Shown: piece after piece, positions 41,475 through 54,853 of the stretch
Layout: every line of letters begins with the position of its first letter
How positions within the stretch are numbered: position 1 is the stretch's first letter
Source of the DNA: Pseudomonadota bacterium
GTDB lineage: Bacteria; Desulfobacterota; Desulfovibrionia; Desulfovibrionales; Desulfovibrionaceae
DNA length: 64,000 bases
Reading direction: 5' to 3'
Assembly: GCA_018822105.1 (NCBI GenBank)
Contig: JAHJLB010000049.1
Location: forward strand, 1-64,000
Position numbers and translations under genes: made by a program
Notes under the pieces: generated by a model
The model's input: only the letters and a program-made list of their open reading frames with translations
What the model was told of the DNA's origin: nothing
Databases searched by the model: none

Positions 41475-41604
41475 TTTTCGGAGGGTTCTGGCGGCTTGAG
41501 CCCCCGGAGCCCAAAAGGTTCCGGGGGGTTGCTTGCTCTTCGGGCCGGAGTGCGCCGCAGGCTTTCGATGTTTCGCTTGCCCCTCGCGGTGCGGGTGGCG
41601 TAGG

Positions 41605-47181
<5,577 letters not shown>

Positions 47182-47380: not shown

Positions 47381-48837
<1,457 letters not shown>

Positions 48838-48841
<4 letters not shown>

Positions 48842-50199
48842 GCGCGGGCCGCGTGCTCGTGGTGGACGACGAGCCCATCGCCCGCGAGAATCTTGTCCAC
48901 GTCCTGGTGCGCGCGGGCTACGAGGCCGAACACGTTGCCGACTCCCGCGCGGCCCTGGCCGAGCTGGACCGCGCGCGCTACGACCTGATGCTCACGGACC
49001 TGCGCCTGGGTGAGCAGAGCGAACTGGACGGCATCGGGCTCATGGAGCGCGCGCGCAAGCTGCACCCCGGCCTGGAGGTCGTGGTCATGACCGGCTACGC
49101 CACCGTGCCCGGAGCCGTCACGGCCATGAACCGCGGGGCCTACTCCTACCTCGCCAAGCCCCTGAACATCGACGAGGTGCGCGCCCTCTCGGCCAAGGCC
49201 GTGGAGTCCAGCCGCCTGCGCCGCGAGGTCCTCGACCTGCGCCAGCGCCTGAAGGACCGCGACGCCCCGCCCATGCTGGTGGGCAAGAGCCCGGCCATGG
49301 CCGCGCTGCTGAAAACCATCGGCCAGGTGGCGCCCACGGCCTCCACCGTGCTCCTCCTGGGCGAAACCGGCACCGGCAAGGAGCTGGCCGCCCGGGCCAT
49401 CCACCACGCCAGCCAGCGCGCGGACAAGCGCTTCCTGGGCGTGAACTGCGGGGCCTTCAGCGAGGAGCTGCTGGCCGGGGAGCTCTTCGGACACGAAAAA
49501 GGGGCCTATACCGGGGCCAGCGAGCGCAAGGCCGGGCTCTTCGAGGCCGCGCACGGCGGCACCCTGTTTCTGGACGAGGTGGGCGAGATGACGCCCTCCA
49601 TGCAGGTGCGCCTGCTGCGCGTGCTTCAGGAGCGCAAGATCCTGCGCGTGGGCGGCACCACCGATATCCCCGTGGACGTGCGCGTCATCGCCGCCACCAA
49701 CAAGGATCTGGCCGTGGAGACCGAGACCGGGGCCTTCCGCCTGGACCTCTACTACCGCCTGAACGTCATCACCCTGCGCCTGCCGGCCCTGGCCGAGCGG
49801 CGCGAGGACATCCCGCTTCTGGCCCGGCACTTCCTGCTCAAATACTCCGAGCTCCTGGGCCGCGAGGTGCGCGAGCTCTCCCCCGAGGTGCTGGACATCC
49901 TGGCCAGCTACCCCTTCCCCGGCAACATCCGCGAGCTGGAAAACCTCATGGAGCGCGCCGTGGTCCTGGCCGAGGGCGACACCGTGGAGGCCCGGCACCT
50001 GCCCCCGGACCTGCAGCTGGACCAGCCGCGCCTGCGCACCTCGCGCCACGGCGGCCTGCCCACCCTGGAGGAGAACGAGCGCCAGCACATCCTCTGGGTG
50101 CTGGAGCAGACCGGCAACAACAAGTCCCGCGCCGCCGAGATCCTCGGCATCGACCGCGCGTCCCTCTGGCGCAAGCTCAAGCGCGCCGGGCTCAACTAG
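48838..50199 (+). CDS. Sigma-54-dependent response regulator
   Basis: 453 aa. Receiver 4-125 with Asp54 (LMLTDLRLG), AAA+ 145-380 with Walker A GETGTGKE (175-182), an intact sigma-54 loop GAYTGA (222-227), Walker B GTLFLDEVGE, and a Fis-type HTH at the C-terminus (NNKSRAAEILGIDRASLWRKL). It is a competent NtrC-type activator. Candidate targets are the TGTTGC-N5-GCAACA palindromes 2.2 kb downstream (inference). GTG start overlaps the kinase stop. Convergent with receiver-lon. Confidence 0.92.
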
Positions 50200-50259: not shown

Positions 50260-52290
50260 CTAGCTCTTCGGCTCCAGCACCACGTCCACCAGCTCATTGG
50301 CCTCGGTGGCCAGCACGATCTTCAGCTGCGAGCGGATGTCTGCCTCCAGGGCCTCGGCCTCGGGCCTGTTGCCTGCGGGCAGGGCCACGGTGTGCACGCC
50401 GCCGCGCAGCGCGGCCAAAACCTTTTCGCGGATGCCGGCCACGGGCAGGAGCACGCCGCCCAGGGACATCTCGCCGGTGAGGGCCACGCCGGGCCTGGCC
50501 GGGCGTCCGGTCAAGAGCGAGAGCAGGGCCATGAGGATGGTCACCCCGGCCGAGGGCCCGTCCTTGGGGATGGCCCCGGCCGGGATGTGGATGTGCAGGT
50601 CCTGCTGGGCGAAGAAGTCCGGGTTGAGGCCGAAGGTCTCGGCGTTGCCGCGGATGTAGGAGAGCGCGGTCTGGGCGGACTCCTTGAGCACGGCGCCGAG
50701 GTTGCCGGTGAGCAGGAGCTGGCCGGTGCCGCGCATGCGCGCCGCCTCCACCAGGACGATCTCGCCGCCGGAATCGCTCCAGACCAGGCCGTTGACCACG
50801 CCGGGGCGCGACACGGGCCGGGCGGACTCGTGGGTGTGGCGGCGGGGCCCCAGCAGGCTCGTCACCAGCGCGGGGTCGACGAGGGTCGGGTAGCTGCCCT
50901 GGGCGTTGCCGGCGGATTCCGGCTTCATGGCCAGGCGCGCCATCTTGCGGCACACGCTGCCGATTTCGCGGTCCAGGTTGCGCACGCCGGCCTCGCGCGT
51001 GTAGTCGCTGATGATGGTGCGCACGGCCTCTGGCGCGAAGACGGGGTAGGGGTGCGTGAGGCCGTGCTCGGCGCACTGGCGCGGCACCATGTGCTTGAGG
51101 GCGATCTGCACCTTTTCGGGCTCGGTGTAGCCGGGGAAGTGCACCACCTCCAGGCGGTCCTGCAGGGGCGCGTCGAGGCGGGAGAGGTCGTTGGCCGTGG
51201 CGATGAACATGACCTGGGACAGGTCAAAGGGCACGTCCACGTAGAGGTCCATGAACGAGCGGTTCTGCTCGGGGTCCAGCACCTCCAGGAACACCGCGCC
51301 GGGGTCGCCCCGGAAGTCCTGGCCGACCTTGTCGATCTCGTCGAGCATGAGCACGGGGTTGTTCACGCCCAGGCGCCGGATGGCCTGGATGATCTTGCCC
51401 GGCATGGCCCCGACGTAGGTGCGGCGGTGCCCGCGCAGCTCGGCCTCGTCGCGCATCCCGGCCATGGACATGCGGTGGAACTTGCGGCCCAGGGCCTCTG
51501 CGATGGCCATGCCGATGGAGGTCTTGCCCGTGCCCGGGGGGCCGGTGAAGCAGAGCACCGGGCCGCGCGCCGGGGCCAGCTTGACCCGCTTGCCCAGCAC
51601 GTCGCGCACGCTCTCGCGCAGGTGGTCCAGGCTGATGGGCTTGGTCAGGTAGTGGGCCGCGCCGGTGCGCATGGCCTCCACGGCGGAAGTCACCGTGGCG
51701 AAGCCGGTGACGATGATGATCTGCGTGCTGGGCGACAGCCGCCCGGCCTCGGCCAAAAGGGTCATGCCGTCCATCTTGTCCATCTTGAGGTCGGTGACGA
51801 TGAGGTCGAAGCTCCAGGCGCGCACCAGCTCCAGGGCCTCCAGGCCGTTGGCGGCGGTGCGCACGGCGTAGCCCTCCTTTTTCAGCACGTGCTCCAGGTT
51901 GGTGCGGGCGATCTCCTCGTCGTCGACCACGAGGACGTGCGGCGGGGCGCTGGCGGCCAGGGTGCGCCCGGCCAGGTATTCCAGCAGGCGCTCCTTGACG
52001 TGGTCCAGGCCGAAGTGCCGGTCGCTCAAAATGCGCTCCACGCGCGGGAAGTCCAGGCAGTCCTCGGTGGCGCTGGTCCAGGGCAGGCTGCTCAGCCAGT
52101 CGATGTAGTTGAGCCCGATGGAGTATTCGGCCACGGAGGGGTCGGTCTTGTCCAGCCGGCCCATCTCCTTGGCCACGATGGCCGCCACGGATTCCGGCAG
52201 GGCGGCGCCCTTCACCTGCCCGCGCAGCTCGTCCAGCCCCTTGCCAGTGCTGGGCGCCTGTTCTTCCTCGGGTTTGCGAAAAAATATCAT
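50260..52290 (-). CDS. Lon-type ATP-dependent protease with an inserted receiver domain
   Basis: 676 aa. Residues 1-110 are the end of the Lon helical region (NYIDWLSSLPW, HFGLDHVKERLLEYLAGR), while the usual N-terminal substrate-binding LON domain is missing. Residues 116-235 are a complete receiver: Asp123/Asp124, phospho-acceptor Asp167, Thr195, Lys217. Then Lon AAA+ resumes (Walker A GPPGTGKT 250-257, Walker B VLMLDEID) and the Ser-Lys protease domain (KDGPSAG with Ser580; Lys623). It is predicted to be a cytoplasmic protease gated by phosphorylation. AGGAGGA precedes ATG 52290. The receiver closely resembles that of the regulator at 48838. Confidence 0.92.
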   Translation of the reverse strand: MIFFRKPEEEQAPSTGKGLDELRGQVKGAALPESVAAIVAKEMGRLDKTDPSVAEYSIGLNYIDWLSSLPWTSATEDCLDFPRVERILSDRHFGLDHVKERLLEYLAGRTLAASAPPHVLVVDDEEIARTNLEHVLKKEGYAVRTAANGLEALELVRAWSFDLIVTDLKMDKMDGMTLLAEAGRLSPSTQIIIVTGFATVTSAVEAMRTGAAHYLTKPISLDHLRESVRDVLGKRVKLAPARGPVLCFTGPPGTGKTSIGMAIAEALGRKFHRMSMAGMRDEAELRGHRRTYVGAMPGKIIQAIRRLGVNNPVLMLDEIDKVGQDFRGDPGAVFLEVLDPEQNRSFMDLYVDVPFDLSQVMFIATANDLSRLDAPLQDRLEVVHFPGYTEPEKVQIALKHMVPRQCAEHGLTHPYPVFAPEAVRTIISDYTREAGVRNLDREIGSVCRKMARLAMKPESAGNAQGSYPTLVDPALVTSLLGPRRHTHESARPVSRPGVVNGLVWSDSGGEIVLVEAARMRGTGQLLLTGNLGAVLKESAQTALSYIRGNAETFGLNPDFFAQQDLHIHIPAGAIPKDGPSAGVTILMALLSLLTGRPARPGVALTGEMSLGGVLLPVAGIREKVLAALRGGVHTVALPAGNRPEAEALEADIRSQLKIVLATEANELVDVVLEPKS

Positions 52291-52411
52291 CCGATGTCCT
52301 CCTGCGCCGTGAGACGGCGCCTGTTCGCGGCCATTCGTGCCCTGCTTACGCCCGCATTTCCCTTTGTGTCAAAGGCTGTTCCGGGCCCCTGTCTCCGTTG
52401 CTTCCGTCGCG

Positions 52412-52428
52412 TGTTGCAATAGGCAACA
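52412..52428. promoter_or_regulatory. Palindromic operator 1 (TGTTGC-N5-GCAACA)
   Basis: Perfect palindrome with spacer AATAG in the divergent region between receiver-lon and the small operon. It has the form of an enhancer-binding protein site. A half-site TGTTGC lies at 52443. Confidence 0.75.
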
Positions 52429-52501
52429 GTGGTTTGGAGAAGTGTTGCATATTGTATTGCCGTGTTATTCAAGGCGGTTGCCCATCACGGTAGTGGCTGA
52501 C

Positions 52502-52518
52502 TGTTGCGGCATGCAACA
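52502..52518. promoter_or_regulatory. Palindromic operator 2 (TGTTGC-N5-GCAACA)
   Basis: Second identical palindrome with spacer GGCAT, 90 bases (centre to centre) from operator 1 and about 85 bases before a candidate sigma-54 promoter, a normal upstream-activator distance. Confidence 0.75.
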
Positions 52519-52593
52519 CCCCACGGGCTCCGCCTTCCCTCTCCTGTAAGATTTTTATCTGTGATTCCAGAGGTTTGCCATTATCGTGCCCCA

Positions 52594-52609
52594 CGGTACA
52601 GCCCTTGAA
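52594..52609 (+). promoter_or_regulatory. Weak candidate sigma-54 promoter of the Usp/TauE operon
   Basis: CGGTACA-GCCC-TTGAA keeps GG and TTG at the right ten-base spacing but has GA in place of GC at -12. The predicted start near 52620 leaves room for the GAGGGG ribosome site of the next gene. The remainder of the 358-base gene-free stretch 52291-52648 shows only the two palindromes. Confidence 0.4.
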
Positions 52610-52648: not shown

Positions 52649-52825
52649 ATGAGCACTCTGCGAGACACCATCGAAACCACATTTGTCGCCGCTGCTTTTG
52701 CCGAAAGCAACCTGAAGCAAGAGGCCCTCTCCATCCAGGGCCGCACCGCGAAAGACCAGCCCAAGGCCGAGGCCGCCCGGCCGGACGCCAAGGCCCGCCG
52801 CCAGCGCCCCAGCCTCAAGGCCTAG
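52649..52825 (+). CDS. Small 58-residue hypothetical protein
   Basis: MSTLRDTIETTFVAAAFAE starts an amphipathic helix, followed by a charged Lys/Arg/Ala/Pro tail (ARRQRPSLKA). No membrane span or known domain. ATG 52649 follows GAGGGG and lies 22 bases before the next gene. First gene downstream of the twin operators. The helical start and basic tail could suit a small partner or a Lon substrate (guess). Confidence 0.6.
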   Translation: MSTLRDTIETTFVAAAFAESNLKQEALSIQGRTAKDQPKAEAARPDAKARRQRPSLKA

Positions 52826-52847: not shown

Positions 52848-53384
52848 ATGCGCAAGTCGACATCCAAAGTCCGCGAGAGCCTGTCCCTGGGCAGCAAGCC
52901 GGGAATCTCCCTGCAGCTGCGCGGCGGACTGCGCGAGGCCATGGAGACTTACGGCGAGGCCATCTCCATGGCCGAGTCCGGCGAGCTGGGCCTCGCCCGG
53001 GAGATCATGGGCGACTTCCACGCCGAGCACCGCAAGATCCTGGTGCTGGCGGAGGGAGACGGCGTGCCGGAGCCCATGGTCGCCTATGCGGTGAACCTGG
53101 CCGAGCGCCTGGGGTTTGACCTGGTGCTGCTGAGCGTGGGCCCGGCCTCCCGCAGCGGCTTGCGCTTCGAGGAGCGGACCCGCGCCGCCGGGCAGCCCCT
53201 GCTCGACGAGGCCGCCCGGCGCGGCGTGGCCTGCGCGCATCTTCTACGCCAGGGCCCCCGCGACGAGGTCCTGAACGCCGTGAGCGTGGAGCTCAGGCGG
53301 GTGGAGTTCGTCATCACCCGCAGGCCCGAGGCCGAAAGGCGGCATGCGGCGCTGACCGTTCCGGAGTTTTCGTTGAAATGCTGA
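52848..53384 (+). CDS. Universal-stress-protein-like nucleotide-binding fold protein
   Basis: 178 aa. Residues about 65-170 have the alternating beta/alpha layout of a UspA domain (KILVLAEGDG, VAYAVNLAERLGFDLVLLSVG), but the glycine-rich ATP loop GxxGS is not visible, so nucleotide binding is doubtful. The first 60 residues are a basic helix-rich extension. Start ATG 52848 after GGAG. Second gene of the operon leading to the TauE permease; may be a stress or regulatory partner of it. Confidence 0.6.
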   Translation: MRKSTSKVRESLSLGSKPGISLQLRGGLREAMETYGEAISMAESGELGLAREIMGDFHAEHRKILVLAEGDGVPEPMVAYAVNLAERLGFDLVLLSVGPASRSGLRFEERTRAAGQPLLDEAARRGVACAHLLRQGPRDEVLNAVSVELRRVEFVITRRPEAERRHAALTVPEFSLKC

Positions 53385-53788: not shown

Positions 53789-54853
53789 ATGGACGTCGCA
53801 CTCGACACCCTGAAATTCATCGACCTGTCCACTTCCAGCATCATCTTCCTGTTCATCGTCGGCTTCATTGGCGGCCTGGTGAGCGGGTTCATCGGCTCCG
53901 GCGGGGCCTTTGTGCTCACCCCGGGCATGATGAGCCTGGGCGTCCCCGGCACCGTGGCCGTGGCCAGCAACATGTGCCACAAGTTCCCCAAGGCCCTGGT
54001 GGGCGCCATCAAGCGCTTCCGCTACGGCCAGGTGGACATCAAGCTCGGCCTGGTCATGGCCGTCAGCGCCGGCGTTGGCGTGCAGGTCGGCATCAAGCTC
54101 CAGCGGATGATCCTTGAAAAATGGGGCCAGTCCGGCTCCAACCTCTACGTGAGCCTGTCCTTTGTGGCCGTGCTGGTCCTGGTCGGCGGCTACGTCTTCT
54201 ACGACGCCATGACCGCCGACAAGGGCGGCAAGCCCAAGGCCGGCGCCACCCTGGCCCAGCGCCTGCAGAAGCTTGAGATCTGGCCCATGATGACCTTCAA
54301 GACCGCCGGGGTGCGCATCTCCATGTGGTTCACCATCCCCGTGGGCTTCGCCACCGGCATGCTGGCCGCCACCATCGCCGTGGGCGGCTTCGTGGGCGTG
54401 CCGGGCATGATCTACGTCATCGGCGCCAGCGGCCTCGTGGCCTCGGCCACGGAGCTGGTCATCGCCTTTGTCATGGGCCTGGGCGGCACCATCAACTGGG
54501 CCATGCACGGCATGGTCGACATCCGCCTCACCGTCATCATCCTGGCCGGGTCGCTCCTGGGCGTGCAGCTCGGCGCCATCGGAACCACCCTGGTCAAGGA
54601 ATCCATGATCAAGTTCGTCATGGGCTCCATCATGCTCATCGTGGCCATCTCCCGCGGCCTGGCCGTGCCCAAGTATCTGGCCGAGCTCGGCGTCATGGAC
54701 GTGGCCCCGGAGACCGTTGCCATCATGGACAAGGCCAGCTTCCTCATCATGTGCGCCGCCCTGACCTTCGGCGCGGTGATCATCCTGGGCAGCATGTACA
54801 AGGCCCGCAAGGCCAACGCCAAGCAGGACCGCGAGGCCTTCGGCCAGGCATAG
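53789..54853 (+). CDS. TauE/SafE-family permease
   Basis: 354 aa, about eight membrane helices. The N-terminal repeat FIGGLVSGFIGSGGAFVLTPGMM and the internal repeat FATGMLAATIAVGGFVGVPGMIY are the TauE/SafE double motif. Members export or import sulfite, sulfonates or other organic anions; the substrate is not defined here. A cytoplasmic loop of about 50 residues separates the two halves. AAGGAG precedes the ATG. Last gene of the operon, closed by a terminator. Confidence 0.88.
   Translation: MDVALDTLKFIDLSTSSIIFLFIVGFIGGLVSGFIGSGGAFVLTPGMMSLGVPGTVAVASNMCHKFPKALVGAIKRFRYGQVDIKLGLVMAVSAGVGVQVGIKLQRMILEKWGQSGSNLYVSLSFVAVLVLVGGYVFYDAMTADKGGKPKAGATLAQRLQKLEIWPMMTFKTAGVRISMWFTIPVGFATGMLAATIAVGGFVGVPGMIYVIGASGLVASATELVIAFVMGLGGTINWAMHGMVDIRLTVIILAGSLLGVQLGAIGTTLVKESMIKFVMGSIMLIVAISRGLAVPKYLAELGVMDVAPETVAIMDKASFLIMCAALTFGAVIILGSMYKARKANAKQDREAFGQA

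Follow-up and report, generated by a model that had tools for sequence, protein, structure and literature searches.

Paired palindromes between divergent lon and anion-exporter operons of Humidesulfovibrio as probable activator sites of the neighbouring NtrC-type regulator

Which protein reads a pair of identical palindromes placed between two divergent operons, and which of the operons would it serve? The window, i.e., the whole stretch of 64,000 nucleotides analyzed here, contains TGTTGC-N5-GCAACA twice as a perfect 17-mer, with 90 bp from one copy to the other, just as an earlier sequence-only reading of this DNA had reported. The predicted lon-proximal activator site lies at 52412-52428 (TGTTGCAATAGGCAACA) and the predicted permease-proximal one at 52502-52518 (TGTTGCGGCATGCAACA), both without strand assignment, and each is kept in all seven aligned genus members. 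The further half-site announced at 52443 is also there (TGTTGCA), in an element at 52443-52459 (TGTTGCATATTGTATTG, again without strand). Since its TGTTG is invariant in the alignment of the seven genus members and locus L126 has a full palindrome with one mismatch at the equivalent position, it is best read as a conserved, weakened (degenerate) third site.

The operons on either side are indeed divergent lon and permease operons. The minus strand carries a DVU3303-like RR-Lon fusion (50260-52290), in which a receiver domain precedes the AAA+ and protease domains of Lon (Pfam Response_reg 119-228, AAA and Lon_C). Its phospho-acceptor residues and Ser-Lys protease dyad are invariant in the eight aligned sequences, which is consistent with a protease tuned by phosphorylation. 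On the plus strand, the permease operon starts with an ORF of 58 aa (52649-52825), conserved in most of the family, followed by two conserved divergent neighbours of RR-Lon, a UspA-like protein (52848-53384; weak Usp match, E 0.00094, below the Pfam cut-off) and a DVU3299-like anion exporter of the TauE/SafE type (53789-54853; Pfam TauE, 2.8e-34). The plus strand also encodes a DVU3304-like membrane sensor histidine kinase (47411-48841, HAMP-HisKA-HATPase) and a DVU3305-like NtrC-type response regulator (48838-50199, with REC, Sigma54_activat and a Fis-type HTH), the proposed binder of the palindromes. This regulator has the hallmarks of a sigma54 enhancer-binding protein, namely, the interaction domain, a GAFTGA-like loop and the Fis-type HTH. 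The loop reads GAYTGA in the window and GSYTGA in close Humidesulfovibrio relatives; in the orthologs of L033-L038 and L065-L089 its start is replaced (SAFTGA, AAFTGA or EAFTGA), and such altered starts may change the contact with sigma54. Directly upstream of the kinase-regulator pair is a very large hybrid sensor kinase (41533-47181), with a solute-binding domain, many PAS domains, a kinase core and a receiver.

We surveyed 149 genomes of the family, found a full or near-full RR-Lon in 63 and compared the oriented regions around it. Gene order is strongly conserved, with the TauE and UspA-like genes divergent from RR-Lon in most loci, and the kinase and the NtrC-type regulator adjoin RR-Lon in either collinear or inverted order (63 loci). 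In the window the pair is inverted and convergent with RR-Lon. Two loci of the same genus (L036 and L037) keep the collinear order, and for that reason the arrangement in the window is, on sequence comparison, a rearrangement and not a different system. No palindromic site was found upstream of the kinase-regulator genes of the window and, as the pair is both convergent and site-less, autoregulation through the palindromes, as in D. vulgaris, would not be expected here. Of the 63 genomes that carry RR-Lon, 61 have a strong match to the regulator, versus 5 of the 86 that lack RR-Lon, these five matches being 48-53% identical and possibly paralogs. Two members of the genus that have no RR-Lon are missing the regulator, TauE and the site pair as well.

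The distribution of the motif follows RR-Lon closely. A scan of the 3.17-Mb genome, assigned to Humidesulfovibrio from its named close relatives, recovered exactly two copies of TGTTGC-N5-GCAACA, both at this locus, and no exact match to the reversed control pattern. In the 63 homologous loci, the looser YGTTGC-N5-GCAACR was found 57 times in the 28 kb upstream of RR-Lon versus once in 1.10 Mb of surrounding DNA, and the reversed control gave none and one match, respectively; the sites therefore far exceed chance, and the similar random frequency inside genes that would speak against a regulatory role was not seen. When the DNA upstream of RR-Lon was searched for all perfect 6-bp inverted repeats, with no motif assumed, GTTGC-N5-GCAAC came up repeatedly. 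Two is the usual number of sites upstream of RR-Lon, with a spacing that is typical of each genus: 89-91 bp in Humidesulfovibrio, 77-80 bp in several genera and 44-46 bp in others. The motif is also found upstream of RR-Lon in Syntrophobacterales and in Desulfobacca-like and Desulfomicrobium-like genomes, and in some members of the family the regulator is present but the sites are degenerate or none can be recognized. Six loci (L045, L047, L048, L052, L055 and L061) carry a hybrid GTTGC-N5-CGAAC and its mirror image upstream of RR-Lon, with the canonical arm outermost. Within the genome of the window, the looser pattern had three further matches beyond the site pair, and all were rejected as regulon members: one is in a probable coding frame, another (C24:35159) is isolated between genes and without support, and the one before a pilin gene is a sigma54 -12 element of which the left arm alone is conserved. 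This pilin gene, type IV pilin-like and on contig 33 of the same genome, is preceded by a canonical sigma54 promoter (L202:3396-3421, CGGCACGGATGTTGCT) whose -12 element resembles the site motif.

The sigma54 promoter expected next to such sites appears on the permease side. At 52594-52609 of the plus strand, CGGTACAGCCCTTGAA (GG-N10-GA, with GG at 52595) is the putative sigma54 promoter of the permease operon; it is a weak match to the consensus, and the assignment rests on conservation in the genus, as the GG and the TTGAAA (in which AA follows the GA) are invariant in seven aligned Humidesulfovibrio genomes. The permease-proximal site is 92 bp away from its putative -24 element. At the equivalent place in other genera, the sigma54 promoter scan detected TGGCACG-N4-TTGTT or TTGGT, and the nearer site is 91-95 bp from the -24 element in many genera, 67-69 bp in others and 109-113 bp in Halodesulfovibrio. 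Best sigma54 scores of at least 14 were obtained on the permease side of 26/63 loci and on the lon side of 4/63, versus about 1.6% of shuffles. The -12 core is GG-N10-GA in Humidesulfovibrio, GG-N10-GT or GG-N10-GG in most relatives and GC in Halodesulfovibrio, so that a search for GG-N10-GC misses most of these promoters. Hence, the overlap of the palindromes with GG-N10-GC promoters, proposed in the sequence-only reading as a check, was borne out only in part: a candidate sigma54 promoter is present on the permease side, but its core is GG-N10-GA and the lon side has none. Despite lacking the GC core, the window promoter is probably still functional with sigma54.

The scan detected no sigma54 promoter facing lon in the window. 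A TTGACA at 52367-52372 (minus strand), kept across the genus, is a possible sigma70 -35 element facing RR-Lon; a family-wide sigma70 promoter was rejected, given that this hexamer is conserved in Humidesulfovibrio only. The genus alignment also revealed a repeated element like ATTYCARNRTGTTR at 52465-52481 and 52562-52579, i.e., between the sites and before the sigma54 promoter. These repeats are possibly IHF sites; as a general feature, IHF-like sites between activator site and promoter were discarded as too weak (20 one-mismatch matches versus 9.8 expected).

In their form and position, in their conservation and in the constant distance that separates them from a sigma54 promoter, the palindromes fit upstream activator (enhancer) sites of the NtrC type, and they are predicted with high confidence to be targets for dimers of the regulator at 48838-50199, the candidate already named from sequence. 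Synteny, co-occurrence and the DVU3305 DAP-chip targets support this binder, and so does the covariation of site and recognition helix. In Halodesulfovibrio the site becomes TGCTGC-N5-GCAGCA and the helix LNRGS, versus IDR(A/V)S elsewhere. Regulators with a DRAS/DRVS helix go with an exact YGTTGC palindrome in 50/83 loci and with a YGCTGC one in a single locus, whereas the ten Halodesulfovibrio-type loci with an NRGS helix have no YGTTGC palindrome and eight YGCTGC ones, some loci being counted twice in these figures since they come from two collections. Loci combining the TGCTGC arm with LNRGS are L065-L073, L082, L181, L185 and L187. They belong to a single clade, and the covariation is thus probably one evolutionary event, although its direction is unambiguous. 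We see about an even chance that regulator and site switched specificity together, with a few helix residues setting the arm, and that the promoters, which systematically lack the GC at -12, are perhaps unusual for sigma54.

Could another protein, either a paralogous NtrC-type activator or a repressor, occupy these sites? Genus members encode several related activators (42-48% identity for the nearest), and a few g26 genomes have their ortholog of the regulator elsewhere than beside the site pair. We consider this unlikely: the altered site of Halodesulfovibrio is matched by a helix change in the 48838-type regulator itself, the regulator co-occurs with RR-Lon as described above, and both operons are DAP-chip targets of DVU3305 (PMC3333781). 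Even less probable is that, instead of being enhancers, the palindromes serve a dimeric repressor as its operator near the lon promoter. On the lon side the nearer site is indeed ~40 bp upstream of TTGACA, but this is too far upstream for simple occlusion, and both the constant distance to the sigma54 promoter opposite and the adjacent activator with its sigma54-interaction domain point the other way. It should be noted that the similar word upstream of the pilin gene proved to be a -12 element, and the TGTTGC words themselves might be seen as -12 elements of sigma54 promoters; this is almost certainly wrong, given that GG is absent 10 bases before the GC at every site on both strands and that both arms of the palindrome are conserved.

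With the regulator at 48838-50199 as the preferred binder, the partner kinase (47411-48841) would phosphorylate it, and the phosphorylated form would bind the two strong sites, with the weak third site at 52443 assisting. Once bound, it would oligomerize and loop to the RNA polymerase-sigma54 at about 52594-52609, activating the operon of the small ORF, the UspA-like protein and the TauE exporter. The palindromes probably modulate the divergent RR-Lon gene too, whose promoter would be of a non-sigma54 type, and RR-Lon would be a second receiver output, presumably a phosphorylation-tuned protease. In this scheme we infer binding, control by phosphorylation, the direction of lon regulation and the physiological signal. 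Coordinate control of both operons is suggested by the correlated expression published for the two D. vulgaris operons (PMC3333781).

In short, the palindromes are very probably docking sites of the neighbouring stress-response regulator, through which it would activate an anion exporter. A little-studied, experimentally mapped three-component stress system (kinase, activator and receiver-bearing Lon protease) is now described in another genus, with a binding site that is predicted with near certainty and a precisely predicted promoter. The novelty is modest, i.e., the non-GC -12 element, the inverted, site-less kinase-regulator genes and the specificity switch. Of the by-products, the change that site and helix have undergone naturally in Halodesulfovibrio is the most useful, and the natural variation over about 140 loci offers a test of which helix residues of NtrC-type regulators read which bases.

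Among known systems, the palindromic core is very similar to that of LuxO-type sites, TTGCA-N3-TGCAA, which belong to a quorum-sensing circuit; the likeness is a resemblance only, as the regulatory circuit is different. ZraR and NtrC are the closest solved structures to the regulator, and these enhancer-binding proteins share with it the domain order and the paired distant sites before a sigma54 promoter, but they have other site sequences and other target genes, and lack the linked RR-Lon protease. Much closer is the DVU3305 regulon of Desulfovibrio (Nitratidesulfovibrio) vulgaris Hildenborough, where DAP-chip gave as targets the regulator's own operon and DVU3302-3298, and the site is reported to be conserved among those relatives that carry RR-Lon (PMC3333781). 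A sigma54 promoter has been assigned to DVU3302-3298, and DVU3303-3305 are marked as having none (PMC4641369). Fitness data show cofitness above 0.9 for DVU3303-3305, i.e., joint action of the three signalling genes, and a role of the exporter DVU3299 under chlorate (PMC10102598). Both loci have a Lon protease with an internal receiver domain, a linked kinase and sigma54-dependent response regulator, a divergent operon with UspA-like and TauE-type anion-transporter genes, a sigma54 promoter on the exporter side only and a conserved motif between the divergent operons, matched here by position and conservation. Desulfovibrio sp. A2 (L184), a near relative, has CGTTGC-N5-GCAACG twice, with a spacing of 78 bp versus 90 in the window. 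The window differs in its inverted kinase-regulator pair without a site of its own, so that the regulator is not in the RR-Lon operon, in the GA of its -12 element and in its sigma54 loop (GAYTGA versus GAFSGA). The whole locus is the Humidesulfovibrio version of the DVU3303-3305/DVU3302-3298 system mapped in 2011.
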